From an uncultured Bacteroidota bacterium (GTDB lineage: Bacteria > Bacteroidota > Bacteroidia > B-17B0 > Aurantibacillaceae), in contig CALMVZ010000011.1 in the NCBI GenBank assembly GCA_937873155.1, forward strand, positions 1 through 64,000: DNA of 64,000 bases, read 5' to 3'. A model generated the notes under the pieces. It did no database searches. It worked only from the letters and a program-made list of their open reading frames with translations, and was not told the origin of the DNA. This document shows, one piece after another, positions 130-13,463 of the stretch. Position numbers and translations under genes: made by a program. How positions within the stretch are numbered: the stretch's first letter is position 1; each line of letters starts with the position of its first letter.

Positions 130-1944
130 ATGAAAAAACAATTACTTACAATTTTAGCGGCCGGAGCAGTTAGCTCTATGTTTGCACAATTACCTGTAAG
201 CACTGCGCCACAAAACAAAAAAGCAGTGTTAGAAGAATACACAGGGATCCACTGTGGTTTTTGTCCTGACGGTCATAAGATCGCAACCAACATTTACAAC
301 GCTGATCCGAATAATGTTATCCTGATAAACGTTCATGCCGGTGGTTTTGCGACCCCTGCGGCAGGTGAGCCTGATTTCAGAACAACTGATGGAACAACAA
401 TGAACTCCACATTTGGTATCACAGGTTACCCAACTGGTCAGGTGAACCGTACTCCTTACTCAGGAACCTTAACGTTAAGCCGTGGTTCTTGGGCTGCTGC
501 AACAAACAGCGTTAAAGCACAATCTGCTTATTGTAACGTGGCATTACAAGGAACAATTAATGCTATTACAAGAGTATTAACAGTTCAGGCACAAGTGTAC
601 TATACAGGAAACAGTCCTGCAGGTACAAATTATTTAACTGTAATGTTACTTGAAGATAAGGTTCCTGCTATGCAAACTGATTATTCACCTGCAACTTATA
701 ATCCGACAAATTATAATGGTGATGGTACGTACAATCATAATCATATGTTAAGGAAAACATTGACCAGCACATTGGGTAATGCTATCACTCCTACAACAAT
801 GGGTTCTAACCATTCTGTAACTTATACATATACCATTCCTTCACTTTACGGTGCCGGTACTAATACCAACATAGCTATGTTAGGACGTATGGAACTGGTT
901 GCATTTGTTGCGCAAACTAATGTAAGCGGAAGCAATATTATTAATGCTGCACGCGGGCCGATCACCCTTACCAACATAGCAAATACATTAGATGCTTCTC
1001 CGGTAACTTTAACTCCGGATAACATGAACTGCGCAGGTTCTATCGCTTCTACAAAATTCAGCTTTGCTAACTACGGAAGTTCAACTATTACTAATGCTGT
1101 TTTCTCTTACAACTTAAATGGCGGCGCTCCTAGTACTTATACATACACAGGTTCAGTTGCTCCTTTAGCATGGTCGAATGTAGTTTCATTACCTGCTGTT
1201 TCAGGTCCTCCTTTAGCAACTAATTCAGTTAACATCAGTGTTGTTTCTGTGAACAGCGGAGCTGATCAAAATGCAGCAAATAACAATTACATGAAAACTG
1301 TAAATTATGGTATTGCAAATAATACTTTAATGCAAATGGACTTTACACAAGACCGTTATGGTTCTGAAGTTGGATGGGGTGTTTATGAAGATGCTACAAT
1401 GACTGTTGTTCCCGGAGCTACTGTAGCTTATGGAACTTATCCTGATCTTACAGCTAACGGAACTCAGCTTCACACACACACTTTCGTTGTTAACCCTGCA
1501 ACTTGTTACCGCCTGATCGTTAACGATCAATATGGTGATGGTGTAAACGCAGGTTACGGTGTTGGTGGTTACTCATTAAAATCAGGAGTAACTCCTGTTG
1601 TAACAGGTAACGGTATGTATGGTGCCGGTGAGTTCAAATGGTATAATACAAGTGTTACTGCTGGAATGATAGCTACTAAAGGTTTAAATATTTCAAATGT
1701 GAAAGTTTATCCTAATCCGGCAGTGAACAATGCTAACCTTGTTATTGATATGTCACAGAACGAAAACGTGAATGTAGTTATCTTGAACAGCCTTGGCCAG
1801 GTTGTGTATAACGAAGCTTTATCACTTGATGCAGGTTCTAACAGTATTAAACTGGATACTGAAAATTGGGCAGGAGGCTTATATAATATCAGCCTTACTA
1901 CTCCAAAAGGAAATGCAACACAGAAGTTAACTATCACTAAATAA
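130..1944 (+). CDS. Secreted Omp28-like thioredoxin-fold protein with T9SS type A sorting domain
   Basis: A Sec signal peptide covers residues 1-20 and ends in FAQ. The next region (EEYTGIHCGFCPDGH, with Cys42 and Cys45) matches the thioredoxin-like start of Omp28-related outer membrane proteins, whose CxxC suggests thiol-disulfide or redox chemistry outside the cell. Residues about 300-400 resemble a CARDB/Ig-like segment. The last ~80 residues (VYPNPA...ending LTITK) are a typical T9SS type A sorting domain, so the protein is expected to cross the outer membrane through T9SS. The start is the ATG that begins MKKQLL. It heads a group of four related cargo genes, and its closest partner in layout is the gene at 3033. 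The exact substrate is unknown. The family call is firm; a redox role is inferred from the CxxC. Confidence 0.85.
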   Translation: MKKQLLTILAAGAVSSMFAQLPVSTAPQNKKAVLEEYTGIHCGFCPDGHKIATNIYNADPNNVILINVHAGGFATPAAGEPDFRTTDGTTMNSTFGITGYPTGQVNRTPYSGTLTLSRGSWAAATNSVKAQSAYCNVALQGTINAITRVLTVQAQVYYTGNSPAGTNYLTVMLLEDKVPAMQTDYSPATYNPTNYNGDGTYNHNHMLRKTLTSTLGNAITPTTMGSNHSVTYTYTIPSLYGAGTNTNIAMLGRMELVAFVAQTNVSGSNIINAARGPITLTNIANTLDASPVTLTPDNMNCAGSIASTKFSFANYGSSTITNAVFSYNLNGGAPSTYTYTGSVAPLAWSNVVSLPAVSGPPLATNSVNISVVSVNSGADQNAANNNYMKTVNYGIANNTLMQMDFTQDRYGSEVGWGVYEDATMTVVPGATVAYGTYPDLTANGTQLHTHTFVVNPATCYRLIVNDQYGDGVNAGYGVGGYSLKSGVTPVVTGNGMYGAGEFKWYNTSVTAGMIATKGLNISNVKVYPNPAVNNANLVIDMSQNENVNVVILNSLGQVVYNEALSLDAGSNSIKLDTENWAGGLYNISLTTPKGNATQKLTITK

Positions 1945-1960
1945 TAAATTCAATTTTAAA

Positions 1961-1997
1961 ACAAAAGCCGGTGAATCAGATCCGGCTTTTGTTTTTT
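1961..1997 (+). terminator. Intrinsic terminator after the first Omp28-like gene
   Basis: ACAAAAGCCGG (1961-1971) pairs with CCGGCTTTTGT (1982-1992), followed by a run of T. It lies 16 bases after the stop codon. Confidence 0.85.
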
Positions 1998-2023
1998 GAA
2001 TTTTAACCCATTAATACAGTATC

Positions 2024-2839
2024 ATGAAAAAAATATTTACTTTAATTACACTTGCCTCTTCAATCACTTTGTTTGGCCAGAGTTTTTCTGTTTATAAGAC
2101 AAACAATTCACAAACAACAATTACAGCAACCATTACTAACGGTTATAGCCTTGCTGACGTAACTTCTTCGAGTGCACAATCCAAAGGCACATTCAAGATC
2201 GTAAATAATTCGGCTTCGACCACATCATTGAATATCATCAGAACTATTGTGTACCAGGCGCCAACCTTGATACTTGACGGATCTACTAATACACCTTATA
2301 CTTATTTCTGTTTTGGAAATACTTGTTTTCCGAGCAATGTTTCAACTGCAGGATCATCTGATTATACTATTCTTGGCGCGGCAGGCTCAACAGTTGCCCC
2401 ATTCGACAACTCCACAGCCAATGCACAGCCTTTTATCGTTTATTTTGAAGAGGCGCCAACAACCGGGAATTATTATGTCCGCTACAAAATATTCAATGTG
2501 AGTAACCCTAACGATTCCATTACTTTCAATTACAAATACAATGAGTTTCCGGGTATTGGTATTAACGAAAATGTAAATACTATAGAAAGCGTTTCAGATG
2601 TTTTTCCTAACCCTTCAAATAATGCAGTGAATTTTTCTTTGCAGCTTAAAAAGGAAAGTGATGTTAAAGTTGAGGTATTCAATAGTCTTGGTAGTTTAGT
2701 TTACACAACTACTGAATCAAGATCTGTTGGAAAAAATAAATTATCATTCGATTGTTCTAAATATAATTCAGGATTATATTTTGTAACGATCTCTGCGGGT
2801 GAATCCAAGATCACAAAACGATTAGTGATCTCTAAATAA
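2024..2839 (+). CDS. Small secreted T9SS cargo protein, paralogue of the gene at 5018
   Basis: This is a 271-residue protein with a signal peptide (MKKIFTLITLASSITLFGQ), a beta-rich body and a T9SS type A sorting domain (VFPNPS..., ending RLVISK). The body contains YFCFGNTCFP and YYVRYKIFNV, which recur almost unchanged in the protein at 5018 (YFCFGDLGTCYP, SEVRYKLFNV). The two are therefore clear paralogues. The cysteines in the CFGNTCF motif could form a disulfide. I recognise no enzymatic motif. It may be a structural or binding partner of the thioredoxin-like protein encoded just upstream, but only gene order supports that. It has its own terminator. Confidence 0.8.
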   Translation: MKKIFTLITLASSITLFGQSFSVYKTNNSQTTITATITNGYSLADVTSSSAQSKGTFKIVNNSASTTSLNIIRTIVYQAPTLILDGSTNTPYTYFCFGNTCFPSNVSTAGSSDYTILGAAGSTVAPFDNSTANAQPFIVYFEEAPTTGNYYVRYKIFNVSNPNDSITFNYKYNEFPGIGINENVNTIESVSDVFPNPSNNAVNFSLQLKKESDVKVEVFNSLGSLVYTTTESRSVGKNKLSFDCSKYNSGLYFVTISAGESKITKRLVISK

Positions 2840-2860
2840 TCCTCTTTTTTAATAACTATT

Positions 2861-2888
2861 AAAGACCGGTTAACCCCGGTCTTTTTTA
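2861..2888 (+). terminator. Intrinsic terminator
   Basis: AAAGACCGG (2861-2869) pairs with CCGGTCTTT (2876-2884), then a T-rich tail. It ends the small T9SS gene at 2024-2839. Confidence 0.85.
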
Positions 2889-2946
2889 TTCCAGGAAATC
2901 CGTTTTTATGGCATATTACACTGTTTTTCAGTATTTTATACACATA

Positions 2947-2978
2947 TTGATCAAGATTGGATTCTGAGCGTATATTTC
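2947..2978 (+). promoter_or_regulatory. Candidate Bacteroidota promoter upstream of the second Omp28-like gene
   Basis: TTG at 2947-2949 is followed, after 21 bases, by TATATTTC at 2971-2978. This is one mismatch from the TTG-N17-23-TAnnTTTG pattern used by Bacteroidota. The start codon at 3033 would give a leader of roughly 50 bases. Confidence 0.4.
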
Positions 2979-3032
2979 GTAAATTTATTATCTGATCATA
3001 ATTCTGTTAAAACAAACATTAAATAAATACAC

Positions 3033-4952
3033 ATGAAAAAACAACTACTCATTTTAGGATTTGCTTCGTTAAGCATTTTCGGGATCGCGCAAACTACCCG
3101 TATGTCTTTATATGAAGAATTTACCGGAGAGAATTGCGGCCCTTGCGCTTCAACTAATCCCGGGTTAAAAGTTTTATTAGACGCGAATGCATCTAAGATC
3201 ATTCCTATTAAATGGCAGGTTGATATTCCTTCGGCTCCAACAACTACATGGTCGTTGTGGCAAACCAATCAAACAGAGATCTCATGGCGTGCTTATTCTT
3301 ATGGTTACGGGATCACTTCTGCGCCTAGCGGAAGAATTGATGGACAAGCCCAAACAGCTTTTGGCGCTTCTTCAAATAATGCCGGTGCTATGACCGCTGC
3401 TGCAATTAGCAGTGCCCAGGCAGTTCCTTCTCCTTTTACTATTTCTATGCAACGTTCATGGGATGTAGGTATGACCGTATTTACAGTTACTGTTAGTATT
3501 ACTGCGGCACAAACATATACTTGTACTGGTCCGTTAAGATTCAGATTAGTAATGGTTGAAAAGAAGATCAATTTCGCTTCTGCACCGGGAACAAATGGTG
3601 AGAAAGATTTTTATTACACTGCTCGTAAATCGTTCCCTACCTTACAAACCGGAACTTCTTTGCCAACATCATGGACAACCGGTCAAAACCAAACTTTCAC
3701 TATTGCATGTACAGCACCTTCTTACATTGTAACAAAATCTGAAGTGGAATGTATCGGATTTATCCAGGATGACGCTACGAGGAGAGTACAACAAGCCGGA
3801 ATAACAAAAGCTCCGAATGATGCACAAAATCTTGGAGTCGTTAGCAGTTTCTATAGCTGTTCCACAACTCATACTCCTGCAATAGCAGTGAGAAATGTTG
3901 GTGACAATGCGATCAGTACAATGACCATACTTCCTGTTCTTGACGGAGTTCCGGGAACACCTTTCGCATGGGCAGGATCTTTAGCAGCAGGCGCTACAAC
4001 AACTGTTACGATGCCTGCAGTATCAACTACTGTAGGAAATCACACTTATTCTACAAACATCACTGCAGTGAACAGCGGCGCTGATGATTATCCTTCGAAC
4101 AATTCGAAGAACGGATCGTTCGCAGTCAGTACAACTGTAACAGCAGCACCTATCGTACAAACATTTTCATTATCAACTTTTCCGCCGACAAACTGGTATA
4201 GAAATAACCAGGATAACGGTACTTTCCAATTCTCGAGAATACCAACTGTAAATGCGTATGGAACAACTCCTGCGGGCGCAGTAAAATATGATTCCTGGAA
4301 TAATCCTGTTGTTGGTGACAGGGATGAATTATACATGCCACACGCTAATTTCACAGGAATGACCAATATGAAATTAACTTTCGATGTTGCCCACGCAATG
4401 GTTGACCCTACAGTTATTGAAGGATTAGATGTAATGGTTTCAACAAATTGTGGTGTTACATGGAACAACGTGTATAGTAAATATGGTACTGTTCTTGCAA
4501 CAGCTCCTGTTTATACTGTTGCCTTTACCCCTTCTGCCACACAATGGAGAAGTGAGGTTGTAAATTTAGGTGTCTACGATGGTATGCCAAATGTATTAGT
4601 GAAGCTTGTTCCGTATAACTCATACGGAAATAATATCTGGTTAGATAATATCAACCTGATCTCTTCAACCGATATTTCTTCAACCACACTTAATTTTGAC
4701 GCGATAGATGTTTATCCGAATCCCGCACAAAATGAGGCAACTGTTCGTATCACTACTCCAACGGGAGGTAATTATACATTGCTATTATTTAATGTAATGG
4801 GACAAATGGTAGATCAAAAAGATATGGCCGCTGATGCAGGAAGCAGCACGGTTACTTTTGATACTAAAGATCTGGCATCAGGTTTATATAATGTTATCAT
4901 TACCAATAAAGCAGGGAACACAACTGTAAAAAAATTAACCATCAATAAATAG
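3033..4952 (+). CDS. Secreted Omp28-like thioredoxin-fold protein with jelly-roll module and T9SS type A domain
   Basis: The signal peptide (MKKQLLILGFASLSIFGIAQ) is followed at once by EEFTGENCGPCAST, where Cys35 and Cys38 form a thioredoxin-type CGPC motif. The region to about residue 260 is Omp28-like. A CARDB-like part (about 270-370) follows. Residues about 375-550 look like a MAM or choice-of-anchor jelly roll (NWYRNNQDN, WLDNINL). The C-terminus (VYPNPA..., ending LTINK) is a T9SS type A sorting domain. It has the same N-terminal architecture as the gene at 130 but carries the extra jelly-roll module. It is presumably a cell-surface or secreted protein with thiol chemistry; the partner is unknown. 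Confidence 0.85.
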   Translation: MKKQLLILGFASLSIFGIAQTTRMSLYEEFTGENCGPCASTNPGLKVLLDANASKIIPIKWQVDIPSAPTTTWSLWQTNQTEISWRAYSYGYGITSAPSGRIDGQAQTAFGASSNNAGAMTAAAISSAQAVPSPFTISMQRSWDVGMTVFTVTVSITAAQTYTCTGPLRFRLVMVEKKINFASAPGTNGEKDFYYTARKSFPTLQTGTSLPTSWTTGQNQTFTIACTAPSYIVTKSEVECIGFIQDDATRRVQQAGITKAPNDAQNLGVVSSFYSCSTTHTPAIAVRNVGDNAISTMTILPVLDGVPGTPFAWAGSLAAGATTTVTMPAVSTTVGNHTYSTNITAVNSGADDYPSNNSKNGSFAVSTTVTAAPIVQTFSLSTFPPTNWYRNNQDNGTFQFSRIPTVNAYGTTPAGAVKYDSWNNPVVGDRDELYMPHANFTGMTNMKLTFDVAHAMVDPTVIEGLDVMVSTNCGVTWNNVYSKYGTVLATAPVYTVAFTPSATQWRSEVVNLGVYDGMPNVLVKLVPYNSYGNNIWLDNINLISSTDISSTTLNFDAIDVYPNPAQNEATVRITTPTGGNYTLLLFNVMGQMVDQKDMAADAGSSTVTFDTKDLASGLYNVIITNKAGNTTVKKLTINK

Positions 4953-4966
4953 ACCAACCTTCTTTC

Positions 4967-4999
4967 AAAAGATCGGCTCAATACGGGCCGATCTTTTTT
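4967..4999 (+). terminator. Intrinsic terminator
   Basis: AAAAGATCGGC (4967-4977) pairs with GCCGATCTTTT (4987-4997), followed by T residues. It ends the gene at 3033-4952. Confidence 0.85.
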
Positions 5000-5017
5000 A
5001 ATCCTAAAATCCACTCT

Positions 5018-5827
5018 ATGAAAAAAATATTTACTCTTTTCTCTATTCTTATAATCGGAACTTTAAATGCCCAAAGTCCAAGCATTGAAGCCTGGACCTT
5101 AGATAAAAACGGTGCCGATTCATTGCAGCTTACAAATGGAATGACTGTAGCTTTCCTGACATCTGCATCAAGTTCAGTTTCCACATCGCAGGTAGAAGTT
5201 AAAATAAAAATCAAAAATATCTCTTCAGCCAACACTTATACATACTCAGTTGAAAGAAAGGATGTAGTTTTAAATCCCGCAGGGCCTGCAGGCGCGAAAG
5301 CCTATTTTTGTTTTGGAGATCTGGGAACATGTTATCCTGCATTTGTAACAGAACCAGTTGATGAATTCAACGTGTTAGGCCCAGGCGGTTCTACAGTAGC
5401 AGGTAAACACATGGTAGCTTATTTGGATGAAGCCTATACCACTGGTTACTCAGAAGTACGTTATAAATTATTCAATGTAGGTACAGGTAAAACAGGCACA
5501 GGCGCTGATACATTAAGCTGGACCTTTAAATACAACCAGTTCATGAGTGTTAATGAATACAATAACATTCTTGAAAGCGTAAGCAATGTTTACCCTAACC
5601 CTTCAACCAATAACGCTAATATTACCGTTGTTTTAACTGATGAAGTTCCTGTAAAAGTTCAGGTATATAACAGCCTTGGCGCTTTGGTTTATACCGGAAC
5701 TGAACAACACCTAACCGGCAAAAATAAACTGGCGGTTGATTGTTCAAATTTCAATAATGGCCTCTATTTTATTACTGTTACCGCAGGTAATGCAAAAGTT
5801 ACCAAGCGTATGGTCGTTAATAAATAA
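5018..5827 (+). CDS. Small secreted T9SS cargo protein, paralogue of the gene at 2024
   Basis: This 269-residue protein has a signal peptide (MKKIFTLFSILIIGTLNAQ), a beta-rich body with YFCFGDLGTCYP and SEVRYKLFNV, and a type A T9SS sorting domain (VYPNPS..., ending RMVVNK). It matches the gene at 2024 along its length and occupies the same place behind an Omp28-like gene. That points to duplication of a two-gene unit. No enzyme motif is visible and the function is unknown. Confidence 0.8.
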   Translation: MKKIFTLFSILIIGTLNAQSPSIEAWTLDKNGADSLQLTNGMTVAFLTSASSSVSTSQVEVKIKIKNISSANTYTYSVERKDVVLNPAGPAGAKAYFCFGDLGTCYPAFVTEPVDEFNVLGPGGSTVAGKHMVAYLDEAYTTGYSEVRYKLFNVGTGKTGTGADTLSWTFKYNQFMSVNEYNNILESVSNVYPNPSTNNANITVVLTDEVPVKVQVYNSLGALVYTGTEQHLTGKNKLAVDCSNFNNGLYFITVTAGNAKVTKRMVVNK

Positions 5828-5922: not shown

Positions 5923-6933
5923 ATGGAATTATATTTAGACTCGGCCAACCTTAAAGAAATTGAAGAAGGTTTTAAGCTTGGATTTTTAAACGGTTTGACC
6001 ACTACCCCAACCTTTATGCAGAAGGAAGGGATCACTGATATTGATGGCACTATCGTTAAATTAAGCAAGATCGTTCCCGTACTTCAGATCGAAGCTTTAG
6101 GAAATACCGCAGAAGAAGTTCTGGCTGAAGCTGAACGTCAATTAGCATTAGGATTAGATAAAACCAAAACCGTTTTTAAAATTCCTGTTTCGTTAGAAGG
6201 CGTGCGCGCCTGTAAACTACTACGTGATAAGGGACTTTTAGTGAACGTACACTTAGTTTATACATTGCAACAAGCTTATATGGCCATGCAGGCAGGAGCA
6301 ACTTATGTTTGTCCGCTCGTAGGCCGTTTACAGGATCAGGGACACGATGCATTAGCTTTAGTTCAACAATGCGTGGATGCTGTTGATCTTTACGGTTACG
6401 ATACAAAGATCATGTTCTCATCAGTTCGTAATGCAGAACACGTGAGAAACGCGATAAATATCGGTGTGCATACAATCACTGTTCCTCTTAAGATCATCAA
6501 ACAATTAACCGAGAATAATTTCACTACTGTTGGTACCGATCAGTTCATTATGGATACCCGTTTAATGATGGTGAAAGTAAAGGAAGCTATCAAAGGAATT
6601 AATCCGGTGGTTGTTGAAAGCACTTCTATTACAGATGCTATTGTGAAAATGACTGAATTCGGTTATGGTGCGATCACTGTTACAAAAGCAGACGGAAGCA
6701 TAAAAGGTGTATTTACTGATGGTTCTCTCCGTAAATTAATTATGGAAAAAGGCCGCGATATCTTAAATAAGAAATTATCTGACCTTGAATACCGCGAGCC
6801 AATTACTATCGAGGGGAATGTTCTGTTGAATGATGCGAATGCTTTATTCAAGAAAACAAACGTTGACACTATTGTTGTTACTGATGGCGGTAAGCCGGTT
6901 GGGATGTTAGATATCCAGGATATACAAGCCTGA
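5923..6933 (+). CDS. Transaldolase/fructose-6-phosphate aldolase-like domain fused to a KdsD-like CBS pair
   Basis: Residues 1-220 align by eye with the small transaldolase/FSA family: MELYLD with Asp6, the beta-strand TTTP, the Schiff-base lysine in FKIPVS (Lys86) and VYTLQQA. The usual Asn of the TTNP motif is Thr28 here. Residues about 227-336 are a CBS pair. GVFTDGSLRKL and the ending GMLDIQDI closely resemble the CBS pair of arabinose-5-phosphate isomerase KdsD/KpsF. I chose the ATG at 5923 because it restores the family N-terminus; a longer reading to 5839 runs into the preceding terminator. KdsC-like and KdsB genes follow, so a role in Kdo precursor supply is an attractive inference. 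The aldolase call is firm at family level; the substrate is unknown. Confidence 0.85.
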   Translation: MELYLDSANLKEIEEGFKLGFLNGLTTTPTFMQKEGITDIDGTIVKLSKIVPVLQIEALGNTAEEVLAEAERQLALGLDKTKTVFKIPVSLEGVRACKLLRDKGLLVNVHLVYTLQQAYMAMQAGATYVCPLVGRLQDQGHDALALVQQCVDAVDLYGYDTKIMFSSVRNAEHVRNAINIGVHTITVPLKIIKQLTENNFTTVGTDQFIMDTRLMMVKVKEAIKGINPVVVESTSITDAIVKMTEFGYGAITVTKADGSIKGVFTDGSLRKLIMEKGRDILNKKLSDLEYREPITIEGNVLLNDANALFKKTNVDTIVVTDGGKPVGMLDIQDIQA

Positions 6934-6977
6934 CAGAATTATCCCGAAGGGATCACTATGTGACGATTTTCGAAGTG

Positions 6978-7039
6978 CGATTGACGATTAGCATTAACAA
7001 GATCGTAAACAGATTTAGGTATTCGTAATTCGTCAATCG
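6978..7039. repeat. Inverted repeat in the gap before the kdsC-like gene
   Basis: CGATTGACGA (6978-6987) and TCGTCAATCG (7030-7039) are perfect 10-base inverted copies separated by 42 bases. They fill most of the gap between the transaldolase-CBS and KdsC-like genes. There is no T-tract after the second arm, so it does not look like a simple terminator. Confidence 0.5.
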
Positions 7040-7055
7040 TAACTCCTAATTTAAA

Positions 7056-7760
7056 ATGAGCAATCTAAAGGTTTTCGAAAATAACGGGGGTAAGTTCTTA
7101 GTTTCAGAATCATTGCTCATTTCCAATCTTAGCCGTATCAAAGCTTTTGTTTTTGATTGGGATGGTGTCTTTACCAATGGGAAAAAAGACCACAACCAAC
7201 AGACCACTTTTAACGAAGTGGATTCAATGGGAACAAATCTTTTACGTTTCACTTATTTTTTAAAGAACAAACAATTACCTATTACTGCTATCATATCCGG
7301 AGAGAATAATACCACCGCTCTTACTTTTTCGGCACGCGAATGTTTTAATGCTACTTATTTTAAAGCAAAAAATAAAACAGATGCCACAAAGCATCTTTGC
7401 GAAACGTATGGCATTTTACCGAGTGAAATTGCTTTTGTTTTTGATGATGTCCTTGATCTAAGCGTTGCAAAAGAGTGCGGGATCAGGATCTTTATTCCAC
7501 GTAAAGCTAATCCATTGTTCAATGAATATGTCATGAAAAATAAATTAGCTGATTATATGACAGGTTCTGAAAGCGGAAATTTTGCGGTTAGGGAAAGTTC
7601 GGAAATTCTAATGTGCTGTTACGGCCTATTTGACGAGGCGGTTACGCAGCGGGTCAATTATTCTGATAGCTACAGCAATTACATCGCCCAACGCAATGCT
7701 ATAAAAACAAAACACTTTATTATTAATGAAGGAAAGATCTCAGAACTTCAAAAGCCGTAA
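7056..7760 (+). CDS. kdsC: KdsC-like HAD phosphatase (Kdo 8-phosphate phosphatase family)
   Basis: The HAD motif I FDWDGVFTNG (about residues 31-40) resembles the KdsC signature FDVDGVLTDG. A motif II-like serine follows (ISGENN), and the motif IV aspartates are in FVFDDVLDL. KdsC removes the phosphate from Kdo 8-phosphate in the cytoplasm. The protein has 234 residues, against about 170-190 for usual KdsC, with extra sequence at both ends, including a C-terminal tail of roughly 30 residues. The neighbouring kdsB and CBS-fused aldolase support a Kdo or related nonulosonate/octulosonate role. A phosphatase for another acid sugar is possible because of the divergent motifs. The stop overlaps the convergent gene by 13 bases. 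Confidence 0.7.
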   Translation: MSNLKVFENNGGKFLVSESLLISNLSRIKAFVFDWDGVFTNGKKDHNQQTTFNEVDSMGTNLLRFTYFLKNKQLPITAIISGENNTTALTFSARECFNATYFKAKNKTDATKHLCETYGILPSEIAFVFDDVLDLSVAKECGIRIFIPRKANPLFNEYVMKNKLADYMTGSESGNFAVRESSEILMCCYGLFDEAVTQRVNYSDSYSNYIAQRNAIKTKHFIINEGKISELQKP

Positions 7761-8599
7761 CCTTTGAATTCCTTTGTAAATTCTTTTTCGTCGAAAGGCT
7801 GGTTGATCTTAATATTACTGTACTCGTAATTTTCAAACAGTCCAATGTCATCATAAATACTTACACCAACCGGGATCATCGTTTTTTCATCAATATAGAA
7901 CACAGCTTTTTTACAATACATACTCGGGACCTGTAATTTTCTGCCTTCTTTTAAATACCCGAAATCATTGAACAGATCATTCTTCGTTCTCAGCAAATAA
8001 TCATTTATACTCTGTTTATAAGCAATACTGGTTGCGGTTTCTTTTTTCTGAACGGTATATTCATAATACGGAAAGGTCTTTGTTTCATAAACTATCATAT
8101 GACATGAATAACCATTGTGTTCGTGCTTTCCGAGGTAACTCAGGTTCTTTGCCAGGTTATCTTTGTCCTTACCTAAGATCAGGGAGATCGTTCTTCCAAT
8201 GAAATCAAACCCTAATTCGTTGATGGTATAATGCTGATTTTTCCGCATCATATTTCCTCGCGGATCCAATGTTAAAGTTAAATACGGAAAAACATGTGGT
8301 TTTACAACTGCCTTATTGTTGTGTTCGCCTGCCACATAAAGTATCTCGAGCTTACCTTGTCTGCCAATAAAATATAACTTACGTGGACTTACATTTACTT
8401 TGATCTCTGACGCAGCTGAAGAATACACGTTATTTATACGCTCCAAAGCTTTTATACTGGTTCTGATCGTTTTTATATTTTTTATCGAATCGATCATGCC
8501 CACAAGCATTTTTAAGGCCTTATCTGACGCAATAGCCTGAGCCGAAATGTTCCCTGATAAAAAAGAAACCAAAAAAACTATGAGTAAATGCTTTCTCAA
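7748..8599 (-). CDS. Secreted DUF1571-type protein with a LysM-like segment
   Basis: This 283-residue protein begins with a signal peptide (MRKHLLIVFLVSFLSGNISAQ). The chosen start is a TTG, because no ATG stands in a position that keeps the signal peptide. The body resembles DUF1571 proteins, a periplasmic family with an LolA/LppX-like shape. A stretch near residues 185-225 (YTVQKKETATSIAYKQ...GRKLQVPSMY) reads like a LysM peptidoglycan-binding motif. It lies between the kdsC-like and kdsB genes but on the opposite strand, so it is not part of that operon. The function is unknown; envelope location is likely. Confidence 0.65.
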   Translation of the reverse strand: MRKHLLIVFLVSFLSGNISAQAIASDKALKMLVGMIDSIKNIKTIRTSIKALERINNVYSSAASEIKVNVSPRKLYFIGRQGKLEILYVAGEHNNKAVVKPHVFPYLTLTLDPRGNMMRKNQHYTINELGFDFIGRTISLILGKDKDNLAKNLSYLGKHEHNGYSCHMIVYETKTFPYYEYTVQKKETATSIAYKQSINDYLLRTKNDLFNDFGYLKEGRKLQVPSMYCKKAVFYIDEKTMIPVGVSIYDDIGLFENYEYSNIKINQPFDEKEFTKEFKGYGF

Positions 8600-8650
8600 T
8601 GAAATAATCCCTAAATTTAATCCTAAGTTTTTAATTGAATATTATATCTG

Positions 8651-9397
8651 ATGAAAATTTTAGGAATAATTCCCGCCCGCTATGCCTCTACCCGTTTTCC
8701 GGGAAAACCTCTTATTGAAATACTCGGAAAATCGATGCTGCAAAGGGTTTACGAACAAGCTAAACGATCAGGGAATTTAACAGATGTAATAATTGCAACA
8801 GATGATGATAGAATAGCTTCACACGCCAAGTCGTTCCGTGCTACTGTGATACTGACAAAAGCCGAACATCCGAGCGGTACTGACCGCAGTTATGAAGCTT
8901 ATTTAAACAACAAAAAGCAGTACGATTATGTGATCAATATCCAGGGCGATGAACCTTTTATTGACCCTTCACAGATCGATCTTTTAGCCAATACCTGTGA
9001 TGGAAAAACTGAACTCGCAACATTAATGATAAAGTGTAACGATCATTCTGTTCTATTCGATAAAGGTGAAGTGAAGATCACACTCAATAGTAATAATGAA
9101 GCTCTTTATTTCAGCAGAATGGTGATTCCTTTTATTAAAGGGGTTGATGAGAAAGAATGGCATAAACATTTCAGTTATTACAGGCATGTAGGGATGTATG
9201 CATACAGAACAGATATCCTTGAAAAGATCACCAAATTAAAGCCTTCCCCTCTCGAAATAGCCGAATCACTTGAACAATTACGCTGGCTGGAGAACGGATT
9301 CAGGATAAAATGTGCCGAAACATTACATGACAGCCATTGTATTGATACCCCGGAAGACATTGAGAAAGTGATAAAATTAATGGGGATAAAAGCCTGA
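8651..9397 (+). CDS. kdsB: 3-deoxy-manno-octulosonate cytidylyltransferase (CMP-Kdo synthetase)
   Basis: The 248-residue length and motifs fit KdsB well: the N-terminal nucleotide-binding IIPARYASTRFPGKPL, EHPSGTDR, and NIQGDEPFI. The enzyme activates Kdo with CTP to CMP-Kdo in the cytoplasm for transfer to lipid A. The Kdo 8-phosphate phosphatase-like gene lies 0.9 kb upstream on the same strand, separated by one opposite-strand gene. The start is ATG; the stop lies 2 bases from the convergent cytochrome lipoprotein gene. Confidence 0.93.
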   Translation: MKILGIIPARYASTRFPGKPLIEILGKSMLQRVYEQAKRSGNLTDVIIATDDDRIASHAKSFRATVILTKAEHPSGTDRSYEAYLNNKKQYDYVINIQGDEPFIDPSQIDLLANTCDGKTELATLMIKCNDHSVLFDKGEVKITLNSNNEALYFSRMVIPFIKGVDEKEWHKHFSYYRHVGMYAYRTDILEKITKLKPSPLEIAESLEQLRWLENGFRIKCAETLHDSHCIDTPEDIEKVIKLMGIKA

Positions 9398-11530: not shown

Positions 11531-13463
11531 AATACAAAAATTCCCAGGCCGATTTATAGAATCCGTTCTTCTCACAATATTCTGTGAAAGCTTTATAAAA
11601 AGGATGATTGCCGACAGTTGCAGTATCCATTATAACAACGAGTTTCTTTTTAGCTCTTGTTAAAGCAACATTCATGCGACGGATATCGCTTAAGAAACCG
11701 ATCTCTGAATTAGAATTACTTCTTACTAATGAAATATAGATCACATCGCGTTCCTCTCCCTGGAAACCATCAATCGTCTTGACTGAAATGTGTCCAATTG
11801 GTTTATTATTGAGATCTTGTTCCGTTAATTTTTCTTTCAATAATTCAATTTGTTCTTTGTATGGGGAAATTATTCCGACCATGATATGATGTTGTTGTTT
11901 GCTGTAACCGTACTGCTCCAGCAATAAATTCAAATGCTTATACAACAAGTCAGCTTCTCCTCTGTTCAACATACTTAATGTTTCCGGGTTTTGCATCTCA
12001 TCAAAACTACAACCGGCCGTATCCACTAATTCAATAGGCAGTTTTAAAAAATCAGAATCACTTGTGGCATCTAACAACGCATCCTTGACAGAAATATCCG
12101 CCTCCAGTTCATTCTTATAGAAATAAGAATTACTGAAGCTCATGATAGCATTATGCATTCTATACTGTCGAGTTAACAAAGAAGAAGCATTCTCTAATTT
12201 CATACACGTATCCAGCAATGTAACATCTAATCCCTCTTTTTTTGCCTGCTGGCTTTTCACCACAGGGGGTAATTGAAAATGATCGCCGCTAAAAATAACA
12301 CGCTTGCATTTTAATAAGGGGATCCAAACCATTGGTTCCAAAGCCTGTGAAGCTTCATCAAAAAATAAAGTATCGAATGTTCTTTTGATCAGGGAACGAT
12401 TGGTGGATGTAACAGGTGTACAACAGATCACTTGCGCTTCATCAAACAAAGTATTTACAACATGGTCTTCCAGTAATCTAGCTTCCTTTATACAATTCTT
12501 TGCCTCGGCATAAAAAGCAGCACGCTGTTGCGCATCTTCCCTACCGAAAACACGTTTGTATTTTCCTGCCATCCTAAAATACTCTTCTGCATTCTTTCGT
12601 AGATTCTTAATGTCTTTATAATACTCGCTGCTTTGAATTTGTCCGTCGATCGTCATCCCCATTAATTCTTCAAACACGCGCGCAGGATGCCCGACCCGCA
12701 AAACTTTCACGCCTTGTTCATGCAGTTTTTCAGTGAGAAGATCTACTGCTGTATTCGTCGGTGCACAAACCAAAACTTGTTTTTCTGTTTGTAATGTTAA
12801 ACGGATCGCTTGTACTAATGTTGTTGTTTTTCCTGTGCCCGGCGGGCCATGAATAACTGCAACATCATTCGCGGATAAAGCATGACGGATGGCTCTGTTC
12901 TGCGATAAATTTAAATTCGGGATCATAATATTCTCGTCCTGCTTCTCAAAACTTAATTTTTGTTGCCCTGAAAAGATCTCCCTCAGCTCAGCCTGTTTAC
13001 AATTCCTTGCGTTGATCACAACATCAAGCGCCTTCTGCATTTCGGTATAACTGTTGTCATCAAACTGAATGTTCACGCCTAATTTACCATCATAAGCCCA
13101 GTCAGGTAATTCTTCAACATGCAAAATGATGAGCATTTTATTTTTTCCGGAACGCTTAATGGTACCGATCACTTCGTTTTGTTCTTCAGCTTGCTTATTA
13201 GAGAACAGTGAAATGTTCTTCCCCGTACTGAAATGATGGGGCATATCGAGGTTAGTGGTTCGCTCCACTTCTATCTGCAATAACTCACCATAACCAATTT
13301 CACTATTAAGGATCTGAATAGGATACCAGGTCACACCATTTTGCTTACGGCGTTCTATCCCGGCTTTCAGGAATTCTTCTTTATACTGCATAAAGTCTTC
13401 TTCCCTCTCAACAAGGAGTAATTCCTTTAATAATCTTAAATGTTTTATTGAGGGTGAATCCAT
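11529..13463 (-). CDS. UPF1/SMUBP2-like superfamily 1 DNA/RNA helicase
   Basis: The protein has 644 residues. An N-terminal beta-rich region is followed by helicase motif I GPPGTGKTTT (about residue 208), motif II DEASQA, motif III GDHFQLPP, motif IV/V segments (QYRMH, TIDGFQGEERD) and motif VI VALTRAKKKLVV. This is the IGHMBP2/UPF1-like SF1B helicase layout common in Bacteroidota. It probably unwinds nucleic acid 5' to 3' with ATP, but its cellular role is not defined. It is a single gene, convergent with the PorE-like gene and divergent from the MBOAT gene. Confidence 0.9.
   Translation of the reverse strand: MDSPSIKHLRLLKELLLVEREEDFMQYKEEFLKAGIERRKQNGVTWYPIQILNSEIGYGELLQIEVERTTNLDMPHHFSTGKNISLFSNKQAEEQNEVIGTIKRSGKNKMLIILHVEELPDWAYDGKLGVNIQFDDNSYTEMQKALDVVINARNCKQAELREIFSGQQKLSFEKQDENIMIPNLNLSQNRAIRHALSANDVAVIHGPPGTGKTTTLVQAIRLTLQTEKQVLVCAPTNTAVDLLTEKLHEQGVKVLRVGHPARVFEELMGMTIDGQIQSSEYYKDIKNLRKNAEEYFRMAGKYKRVFGREDAQQRAAFYAEAKNCIKEARLLEDHVVNTLFDEAQVICCTPVTSTNRSLIKRTFDTLFFDEASQALEPMVWIPLLKCKRVIFSGDHFQLPPVVKSQQAKKEGLDVTLLDTCMKLENASSLLTRQYRMHNAIMSFSNSYFYKNELEADISVKDALLDATSDSDFLKLPIELVDTAGCSFDEMQNPETLSMLNRGEADLLYKHLNLLLEQYGYSKQQHHIMVGIISPYKEQIELLKEKLTEQDLNNKPIGHISVKTIDGFQGEERDVIYISLVRSNSNSEIGFLSDIRRMNVALTRAKKKLVVIMDTATVGNHPFYKAFTEYCEKNGFYKSAWEFLY

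Follow-up and report, generated by a model that had tools for sequence, protein, structure and literature searches.

The arabinose 5-phosphate (A5P) required for the synthesis of 3-deoxy-D-manno-octulosonic acid (Kdo) is made by KdsD, an isomerase in which a SIS domain is fused to a C-terminal pair of CBS domains, and which is described together with KpsF and GutQ by the model TIGR00393. Here we consider a stretch of DNA from an uncultured Bacteroidota bacterium (assembly GCA_937873155.1, contig CALMVZ010000011.1, positions 1 to 64,000; the whole stretch of 64,000 nucleotides is called the window), where a gene on the forward strand (5923..6933, 336 amino acids) encodes a domain of fructose-6-phosphate aldolase (FSA)/transaldolase type followed by a KdsD-like CBS pair. 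This fusion resembles KdsD, KpsF and GutQ in its C-terminal CBS pair, in its place in the pathway, as judged by exclusion and by operon, and in that the two distributions are complementary. It differs from them in that a catalytic domain unrelated to SIS, with a Schiff-base lysine, stands where they have the SIS domain, and in the residues DIQD at the end of its CBS part. As judged from genome comparisons, many Bacteroidota appear to have swapped KdsD for an unrelated aldolase-type enzyme with the same kind of regulatory tail.

The pathway to 8-amino-Kdo, in which KdnA and KdnB take part, is described in Shewanella, and we know of no kdsA variant, aldolase-CBS fusion or KdsC-like phosphatase among the genes of the Shewanella kdn cluster. 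Homologues of kdnA and kdnB occur near the fusion in several of the loci discussed below, but these loci hold in addition a kdsA variant, the fusion and a gene for a KdsC-like phosphatase. With FSA and the decameric-type transaldolases (TIGR00875, PF00923; FsaA, TalC) the fusion shares the fold, Lys86, Asp6, Glu57, Asn108 and the Arg, Ser and Arg of the phosphate site, while it differs from them by the substitutions N28T, T110H and S130C, by Leu132, by the added CBS pair and by a score below the cut-off of the FSA equivalog. According to PMC6298115, FsaA forms A5P from glycolaldehyde and glyceraldehyde 3-phosphate (GAP) in vitro, and a designed FsaA step of this kind, identical to the reaction proposed below for the fusion, belongs to a synthetic A5P bypass of photorespiration; the bypass is engineered, operates in vitro and leads toward ribulose 5-phosphate, whereas here a natural gene lies beside lipopolysaccharide genes. 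No description of a CBS-fused FSA, of an aldolase as source of A5P for Kdo or of a replacement of KdsD was found in the literature searched, the coverage of which leaves out most subscription journals.

Distribution of the fusion and of kdsD

The fusion, counted either complete or truncated by a contig end, is present in 84 of the 87 genomes of the window's own family (f1), all except G057, G062 and G076, and is therefore not a chance product. In the same 87 genomes KdsA scores above its cut-off in 81 and kdsD in two. In a sample of the whole phylum (296 Bacteroidota genomes, at least 90% complete) the fusion is found in five, i.e., in the window's genome (G000) and in G177, G378, G232 and G276, all of which have KdsA and none of which has kdsD. 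These five matches have E values of at most 1.8e-181, and the next matches, which are to plain FSA, begin at 1.4e-46. Among the 219 genomes with KdsA, 210 have kdsD, five the fusion and four neither gene; one genome (G200) has kdsD without KdsA, and 76 have none of the three genes. G127, the only class-mate in this sample that is devoid of both kdsD and the fusion, is also devoid of KdsA.

The class was examined in a sample of 268 genomes, at least 95% complete, where the fusion was accepted at E ≤1e-70, kdsD at E <1e-39 and KdsA at E <1e-50; 17 of the genomes so scored as having kdsD and eight of those with KdsA lie under the curated cut-offs, and the KdsA scores of G393 and G441 are partial. 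The fusion is found in 51 of these genomes, distributed over 15 families (14 when family f53 is left aside), and in one of them, G563, it is cut by a contig end (locus L214). Among the 211 genomes with KdsA, the fusion alone occurs in 46, kdsD alone in 162, both in one (G548) and neither in two (G393 and G554), a complementarity with a Fisher p of 7e-43 when relatedness is ignored. Among the 57 genomes without KdsA, four have the fusion, all of them in f53 and one of these, G465, with a weak kdsD-like match as well, four have kdsD and 49 have neither. Since the Fisher value ignores relatedness, the stronger argument is the rule that holds within families: f3, f9, f11, f55, f60 and f79 each contain both states, with no exception among their genomes with KdsA, and in f58 a single genome (G522) lacks both the fusion and KdsA while the other 11 sampled have both. 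A scan of genome contigs reported 491 related loci, of which the best 80 were kept, and the distribution given here is that within Bacteroidota.

The window's genome (4.85 Mb in 39 contigs, listed as 100% complete and 4.29% contaminated) has KdsA, KdsB and KdsC. Its KdsA (L050, G000:C26:124264-125034) reaches 332.5 bits with TIGR01362, the cut-off of which is 314, and an ordinary KdsC outside the window locus reaches 128.1 bits. A SIS-type kdsD, the absence of which had been named as a check on the proposal, was not found in this genome by searches with TIGR00393 and PF01380. A hidden kdsD was considered and rejected: TIGR00393 matches three places, all of them CBS parts only, and PF01380 matches a 618-residue frame that has two SIS domains and was assigned to GlmS, besides three further genes which by eye look like murQ, like a bifunctional phosphoglucose/phosphomannose isomerase gene and like gmhA, the last of these carrying the Pfam domain SIS_2 and being followed by heptose-type genes. 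A shorter form of kdsD should have come to light as well, for weaker matches that by their scores are kdsD-like, of about 1e-40 to 1e-50, occur in 14 genomes of the class sample.

The presence of a GlmS-like gene raises the question whether A5P could come from another isomerase such as GlmS, with the fusion carrying out some other task of the Kdo pathway. As reported in PMC11301363, human GFAT converts ribulose 5-phosphate into A5P by isomerisation, and several eukaryotic GFATs rescue an E. coli mutant. If GlmS were sufficient, kdsD would often have been lost without gain of the fusion, and the state with neither gene is seen in only two of the 211 genomes of the class sample with KdsA, so that this source of A5P is very unlikely.

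Catalytic site, CBS pair and a proposed route to A5P

The catalytic half of the fusion (TAL_FSA, 5929..6525 on the forward strand, residues 3-201) scores 123.5 bits with PF00923, which has a gathering cut-off of 27, and its closest NCBIfam model is the fructose-6-phosphate aldolase equivalog TIGR00875, where it reaches 160.7 bits and stays below the cut-off of 245.95. A Pfam scan of the whole protein returns TAL_FSA and CBS domains, the latter in two stretches, and no SIS domain. The best start is the ATG at 5923, and the N-terminus MELYLDS is common to all 17 rows of the fusion alignment. The predicted structure (mean pLDDT 89.3, pTM 0.58) aligns with the decameric-type transaldolases 3r8r and 3s0c at Z 29 and an rmsd of 1.4 across 195 residues. 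The sequence-only reading, which had described an FSA/transaldolase domain with Lys86 as Schiff-base lysine joined to a CBS pair, and a Thr in place of the active-site Asn28, thus holds up in both respects, and the structure prediction that it had suggested gives a transaldolase fold. By sequence criteria the fusion belongs to the TAL_FSA superfamily but is divergent, falling below the equivalog cut-off for FSA and lacking three active-site residues that the plain enzymes conserve, and it is not a KdsD, as there is no SIS domain and the TIGR00393 score is below cut-off.

The CBS pair (6559..6909, forward strand) is related to the C-terminal half of KpsF/KdsD. Its closest NCBIfam model is TIGR00393 (5e-16, profile positions 151-267 of 268), and the resulting 59.7 bits, against a curated cut-off of 203.7, come from the CBS half only. 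Its best PDB match is 4o9k, entitled 'Arabinose 5-phosphate isomerase', over 130 residues, and when all 32 CBS parts of fusions, f53 included, are compared with those of nine KdsD, an IMPDH-like protein and one further CBS protein, each has its highest score with a KdsD. In the corresponding tree, which is weak, long branches meet, so that descent from KdsD is not proven by it. The signatures, said earlier to be the same as those of KdsD, turn out to be similar and not identical: GVFTDGSLR occurs in 49, GVFTDGDLR in 36 and GMLDIQD in 93 of 116 distinct fusions, while G(V/I)ITDGDLR occurs in eight of nine Bacteroidota KdsD (the ninth has no match), none of which ends in GMLDIQD. Where the fusion ends in DIQD, six of the nine KdsD have H(L/I/M)HD and three have neither form.

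Consider now the active site, for which 112 distinct fusions of the main clade were compared with 27 plain FSA proteins and the fusions of f53 were scored apart. Lys86 (codon at 6178..6180, forward strand) is invariant in all 112 fusions and in all 27 plain FSA, and Glu57, Asn108, Arg135, Ser167 and Arg169 are present in 112 of 112 and Asp6 in 111 (one gap). Complete switches, from one residue in 27 of 27 plain FSA to another in 112 of 112 fusions, are N28T, T110H, S130C and F132L, and further F113Y and A166S. In the four fusions of f53, in contrast, position 86 is Arg, Arg, Arg and Ser, the two arginines of the phosphate site are also lost, and all four genomes lack KdsA. Family f53 serves as a natural control, in that within the class sample the catalytic site is retained only where KdsA is present. 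Nor is the domain found mainly apart from Kdo genes, which would have refuted the earlier proposal: KdsA is present in 47 of the 51 fusion genomes of that sample, and the exceptions have all lost the Schiff-base lysine. The f53 loci (L198, L200, L202 and L206) carry divergent fusions, of which the one scanned (L198) still matches TAL_FSA and CBS, and their sequences suggest relics or proteins turned to another task.

Fold and lysine are of transaldolase type, and the fusion could in principle be an ordinary FSA or transaldolase that serves the pentose phosphate pathway, bears a regulatory tail and lies next to Kdo genes by coincidence. This is most improbable: the fusion hardly ever occurs together with kdsD and goes with KdsA, it sits in kdsA operons, the Asn, Thr and Phe of plain FSA are changed in all 112 main fusions, and the window's genome has a separate plain FSA (G000:C3).

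Asp6 and Asn108 we take to bind hydroxyls, residue 28 is the other contact of the C1 hydroxyl in FSA, and position 132 is Tyr in FsaA. According to PMC3962226, the exchanges A129S in FSA and S176A in TalB F178Y alter how donors that have or lack a C1 hydroxyl are used; by alignment this position is Cys130 of the fusion, and Leu132 is at the F178Y position of TalB, where plain FSA of the present set has Phe. Since the residue equivalent to Cys130 affects the choice between these two kinds of donor, S130C together with N28T fits a donor that lacks the C1 hydroxyl.

A mechanism can be proposed on this basis, in which the class I aldolase domain, with Lys86 forming a Schiff base, would supply A5P to Kdo 8-phosphate synthase, while the CBS pair would give the fusion the same kind of control domain as KdsD has. 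Lys86 would hold glycolaldehyde as an enamine, with its hydroxyl bound by Asp6 and Asn108, and Arg135, Ser167 and Arg169 would bind the phosphate of the acceptor. The imine of A5P at C1 would then have the same register as the imine of fructose 6-phosphate at C2, minus the C1 hydroxymethyl group. That FsaA and FsaB of E. coli prefer glycolaldehyde as donor and yield A5P with GAP as acceptor (PMC6298115), and that PDB entry 3upb is by its title a transaldolase in covalent complex with A5P, support A5P as product, and fit assembly from C2 and C3 units and epimerisation of ribose 5-phosphate alike. A5P is thus the probable product of the fusion, and its formation by aldol addition of glycolaldehyde to GAP, a less secure step, we judge to be a little short of an even chance.

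Most of what remains falls to a second chemistry with the same KdsD-replacing role, in which the fusion would convert ribose 5-phosphate to A5P by epimerisation at C2. The imine of Lys86 would form at C1 of the aldose, and C2 would lose a proton and regain one from the opposite face, His110 and Cys130 serving as new acid/base groups; or else the sugar would be cleaved and rejoined, as L-ribulose-5-phosphate 4-epimerase does. The problem of glycolaldehyde supply would be removed, the chain of an aldopentose 5-phosphate attached through C1 is as long as that of fructose 6-phosphate attached through C2, covalent binding of A5P by a transaldolase is on record (3upb, by title), and His110 and Cys130 are new residues that are invariant in 112 of 112. 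The same substitutions are, however, equally explained by a donor without C1 hydroxyl. We know of no member of the transaldolase family that acts as an epimerase, which counts against this route, and it is regarded as rather unlikely though not remote.

The accompanying KdsA and the gene neighbourhood

The KdsA proteins of 25 sampled fusion genomes all fall in a clade of their own (support 100/100, on a branch of 1.14 changes per site). They are 67-100% identical to the KdsA of the window's genome, compared with 40-48% for the KdsA of 22 kdsD genomes, among which are members of f3, f9, f55, f60 and f79. Several positions that are invariant in the 22 ordinary KdsA are fully changed in the 25, among others A59D (in the KANR motif), R118M, Q201R and P203Y, and the KdsA of the window's genome has the motifs KDNRSS, LCMQ and THCVRKYG. 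The kdsA variant and the fusion on the one hand, and kdsA and kdsD on the other, are thus exchanged as sets, which strengthens the functional tie between fusion and KdsA and suggests spread by transfer.

These substitutions allow another interpretation, in which the fusion makes some other aldose phosphate and the variant KdsA joins this to phosphoenolpyruvate to give a Kdo-like acid. The separate clade, with Ala to Asp in KANRSS, Arg to Met in LCRQ, Q201R and P203Y, is in its favour, and so is the co-inheritance of fusion and variant, which jointly replace kdsA and kdsD in f3, f9, f55, f60 and f79. Yet the variant scores above the curated cut-off for Kdo 8-phosphate synthase in 81 of the 87 genomes of the window's family, alignment with two other KdsA shows that Lys, Arg and His are retained in the motifs taken as the key ones of PMC6650799, and the operons concerned also hold genes for KdsB and for 8-amino-Kdo. 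Furthermore, three genomes (G017, G463 and G489, at L249, L250 and L251) have, in addition to the variant, an ordinary KdsA in which the KANR motif is present, together with the fusion and without kdsD, which favours A5P. A different sugar is for these reasons improbable.

The neighbourhood was examined in 26 loci outside the window's family, the four f53 loci, L214 and L220 (3.8 kb) not being included. KdsA lies upstream of the fusion within 5 kb and on the same strand in 21 of them, a KdsC-like gene of the HAD type lies downstream in 22, kdsB lies within 5 kb in seven, and kdnA and kdnB, for an aminotransferase and an iron alcohol dehydrogenase, lie nearby in eight. Of the kdn proteins encoded at L218, one matches PDB entry 5k8b (KdnA, 6e-129) and the other 5k8c (KdnB, 1e-123). 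In L190 and L194 the full order is kdnA, kdnB, kdsA, fusion, HAD gene and kdsB, which reads as a set in which each step has one gene and the fusion takes the position of kdsD. There are also kdsD genomes with kdsD next to kdsA, as in G353:C58 from another class (kdsA 11625-12389, kdsD 12578-13387) and in L222 and L224, where the distance is below 2 kb, and this is the same slot as the fusion holds in fusion loci; in L223, L226 and L227 kdsD is next to a gene that by eye looks like recQ.

Homologues of kdnA and kdnB by kdsA and the fusion are seen in L120, L123, L127, L128, L190, L194, L203, L208, L210, L215, L217, L218 and others, and their presence suggests 8-amino-Kdo in the lipopolysaccharide of many Bacteroidota. 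In L033 and L045 (genus g4) a gene of sugar kinase type, which by eye resembles a heptose phosphate kinase gene, comes after the fusion and the HAD gene.

In the window itself the fusion is followed on the forward strand by the KdsC-like HAD phosphatase gene (7056..7760, 234 amino acids) and by kdsB for CMP-Kdo synthetase (8651..9397; TIGR00466, 206 bits with a cut-off of 155.2). Both had been reported as following the fusion, and both are present, but a DUF1571/LysM-like gene, identified by Pfam on the reverse strand (7748..8599) and omitted from that account, lies between them; it holds the same position in several relatives (L039, L040 and L052). The phosphatase has KdsC as its best NCBIfam match, as had been claimed, but it is below the family cut-offs (48.3 bits with NF007019, cut-off 208, and 42.9 with TIGR01670, cut-off 106.95) and is a second, divergent relative, the ordinary KdsC being encoded elsewhere. 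The residues of its HAD catalytic motifs, D34, D36, K107, D130, D131 and D134, are conserved at 93% or more over 86 rows, in which Phe replaces Gly ahead of the DD motif. The HAD gene often remains beside the fusion where kdsA has gone elsewhere, despite the ordinary KdsC in the window's genome, and its product may act as an additional phosphatase for Kdo 8-phosphate or have another role. Upstream, at 130-5827, the window has repeated genes for secreted-looking proteins, two of which (2024-2839 and 5018-5827) form one cluster, and the C-terminal ends of these proteins look by eye like type IX sorting tails.

Probable replacement of KdsD and its consequences

The negative outcome of the searches for a SIS-type kdsD in the genome, the almost perfect complementarity of fusion and kdsD where KdsA is present, the position between kdsA and the HAD gene in most of the loci sampled outside the window's family, the invariant Schiff-base and phosphate site and the consistently altered donor side lead together to the conclusion that the fusion probably replaces KdsD by sugar phosphate chemistry on a Schiff base, a claim that we hold, from sequence comparison, with good though not full confidence. 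Of the new route to A5P that had been proposed earlier, the KdsD-replacing role is thus strongly supported by distribution, while the aldol chemistry is plausible, the data being compatible with another reaction of the Lys86 imine too.

Several observations weigh against this conclusion. For the aldol route, no gene that would supply glycolaldehyde was identified, no search aimed at one having been made. The four genomes with KdsA and neither gene in the phylum sample (G109, G286, G354 and G370) belong to other classes and imply that another source of A5P or gaps in the assemblies exist. Two genomes of the window's family (G051 and G070) and G548 carry both the fusion and kdsD. In G070 kdsD is on a contig of 3.3 kb, and for G548 and G051 no sign of contamination was found, GC content and tetranucleotides of the kdsD contigs agreeing with those of the fusion contigs within or near the range set by three controls from the same genome, in a comparison with no negative control; such genomes could be intermediates in which the fusion has been gained and kdsD not yet lost. 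Of the 26 loci above, four have no HAD neighbour and five no kdsA, and in the window's own family KdsA is not near the fusion in any of the 14 loci with at least 1.5 kb upstream, although the HAD gene is retained in 12 of 16. Outside this 1.5-kb filter, L042 (G051) has the order kdsA, fusion, HAD gene, with kdsA directly upstream. The family-typical Asn28 and Thr110 are replaced, so that a different type of reaction could be carried out, and the altered conserved positions of KdsA could mean that the aldose made differs from plain A5P.

A wider proposal, which we put forward tentatively and consider less likely to be right than wrong, is that of a mobile, self-contained Bacteroidota set for Kdo and 8-amino-Kdo, consisting of the variant kdsA, the aldolase-CBS fusion, the KdsC-like phosphatase and in part kdsB and kdnA/kdnB, which would build the lipopolysaccharide sugar from C2 and C3 units, glycolaldehyde and GAP, and not from ribulose 5-phosphate, and which would have displaced the kdsA/kdsD pair in at least five families. 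Within such a set the aldolase may hand open-chain A5P straight to the variant KdsA.

If the replacement of KdsD is true, the role of KdsD is filled, in 14 families of the class sample (15 when f53 is counted), by an unrelated fold joined to a control domain of the same kind, and a step of envelope synthesis would thereby have undergone non-homologous replacement. The metabolic models of fusion-bearing bacteria would gain a missing reaction, and the engineered step of C2 assimilation would have a natural counterpart. The question of what the CBS pair of KdsD senses would, moreover, become testable on a second, independent catalytic domain.

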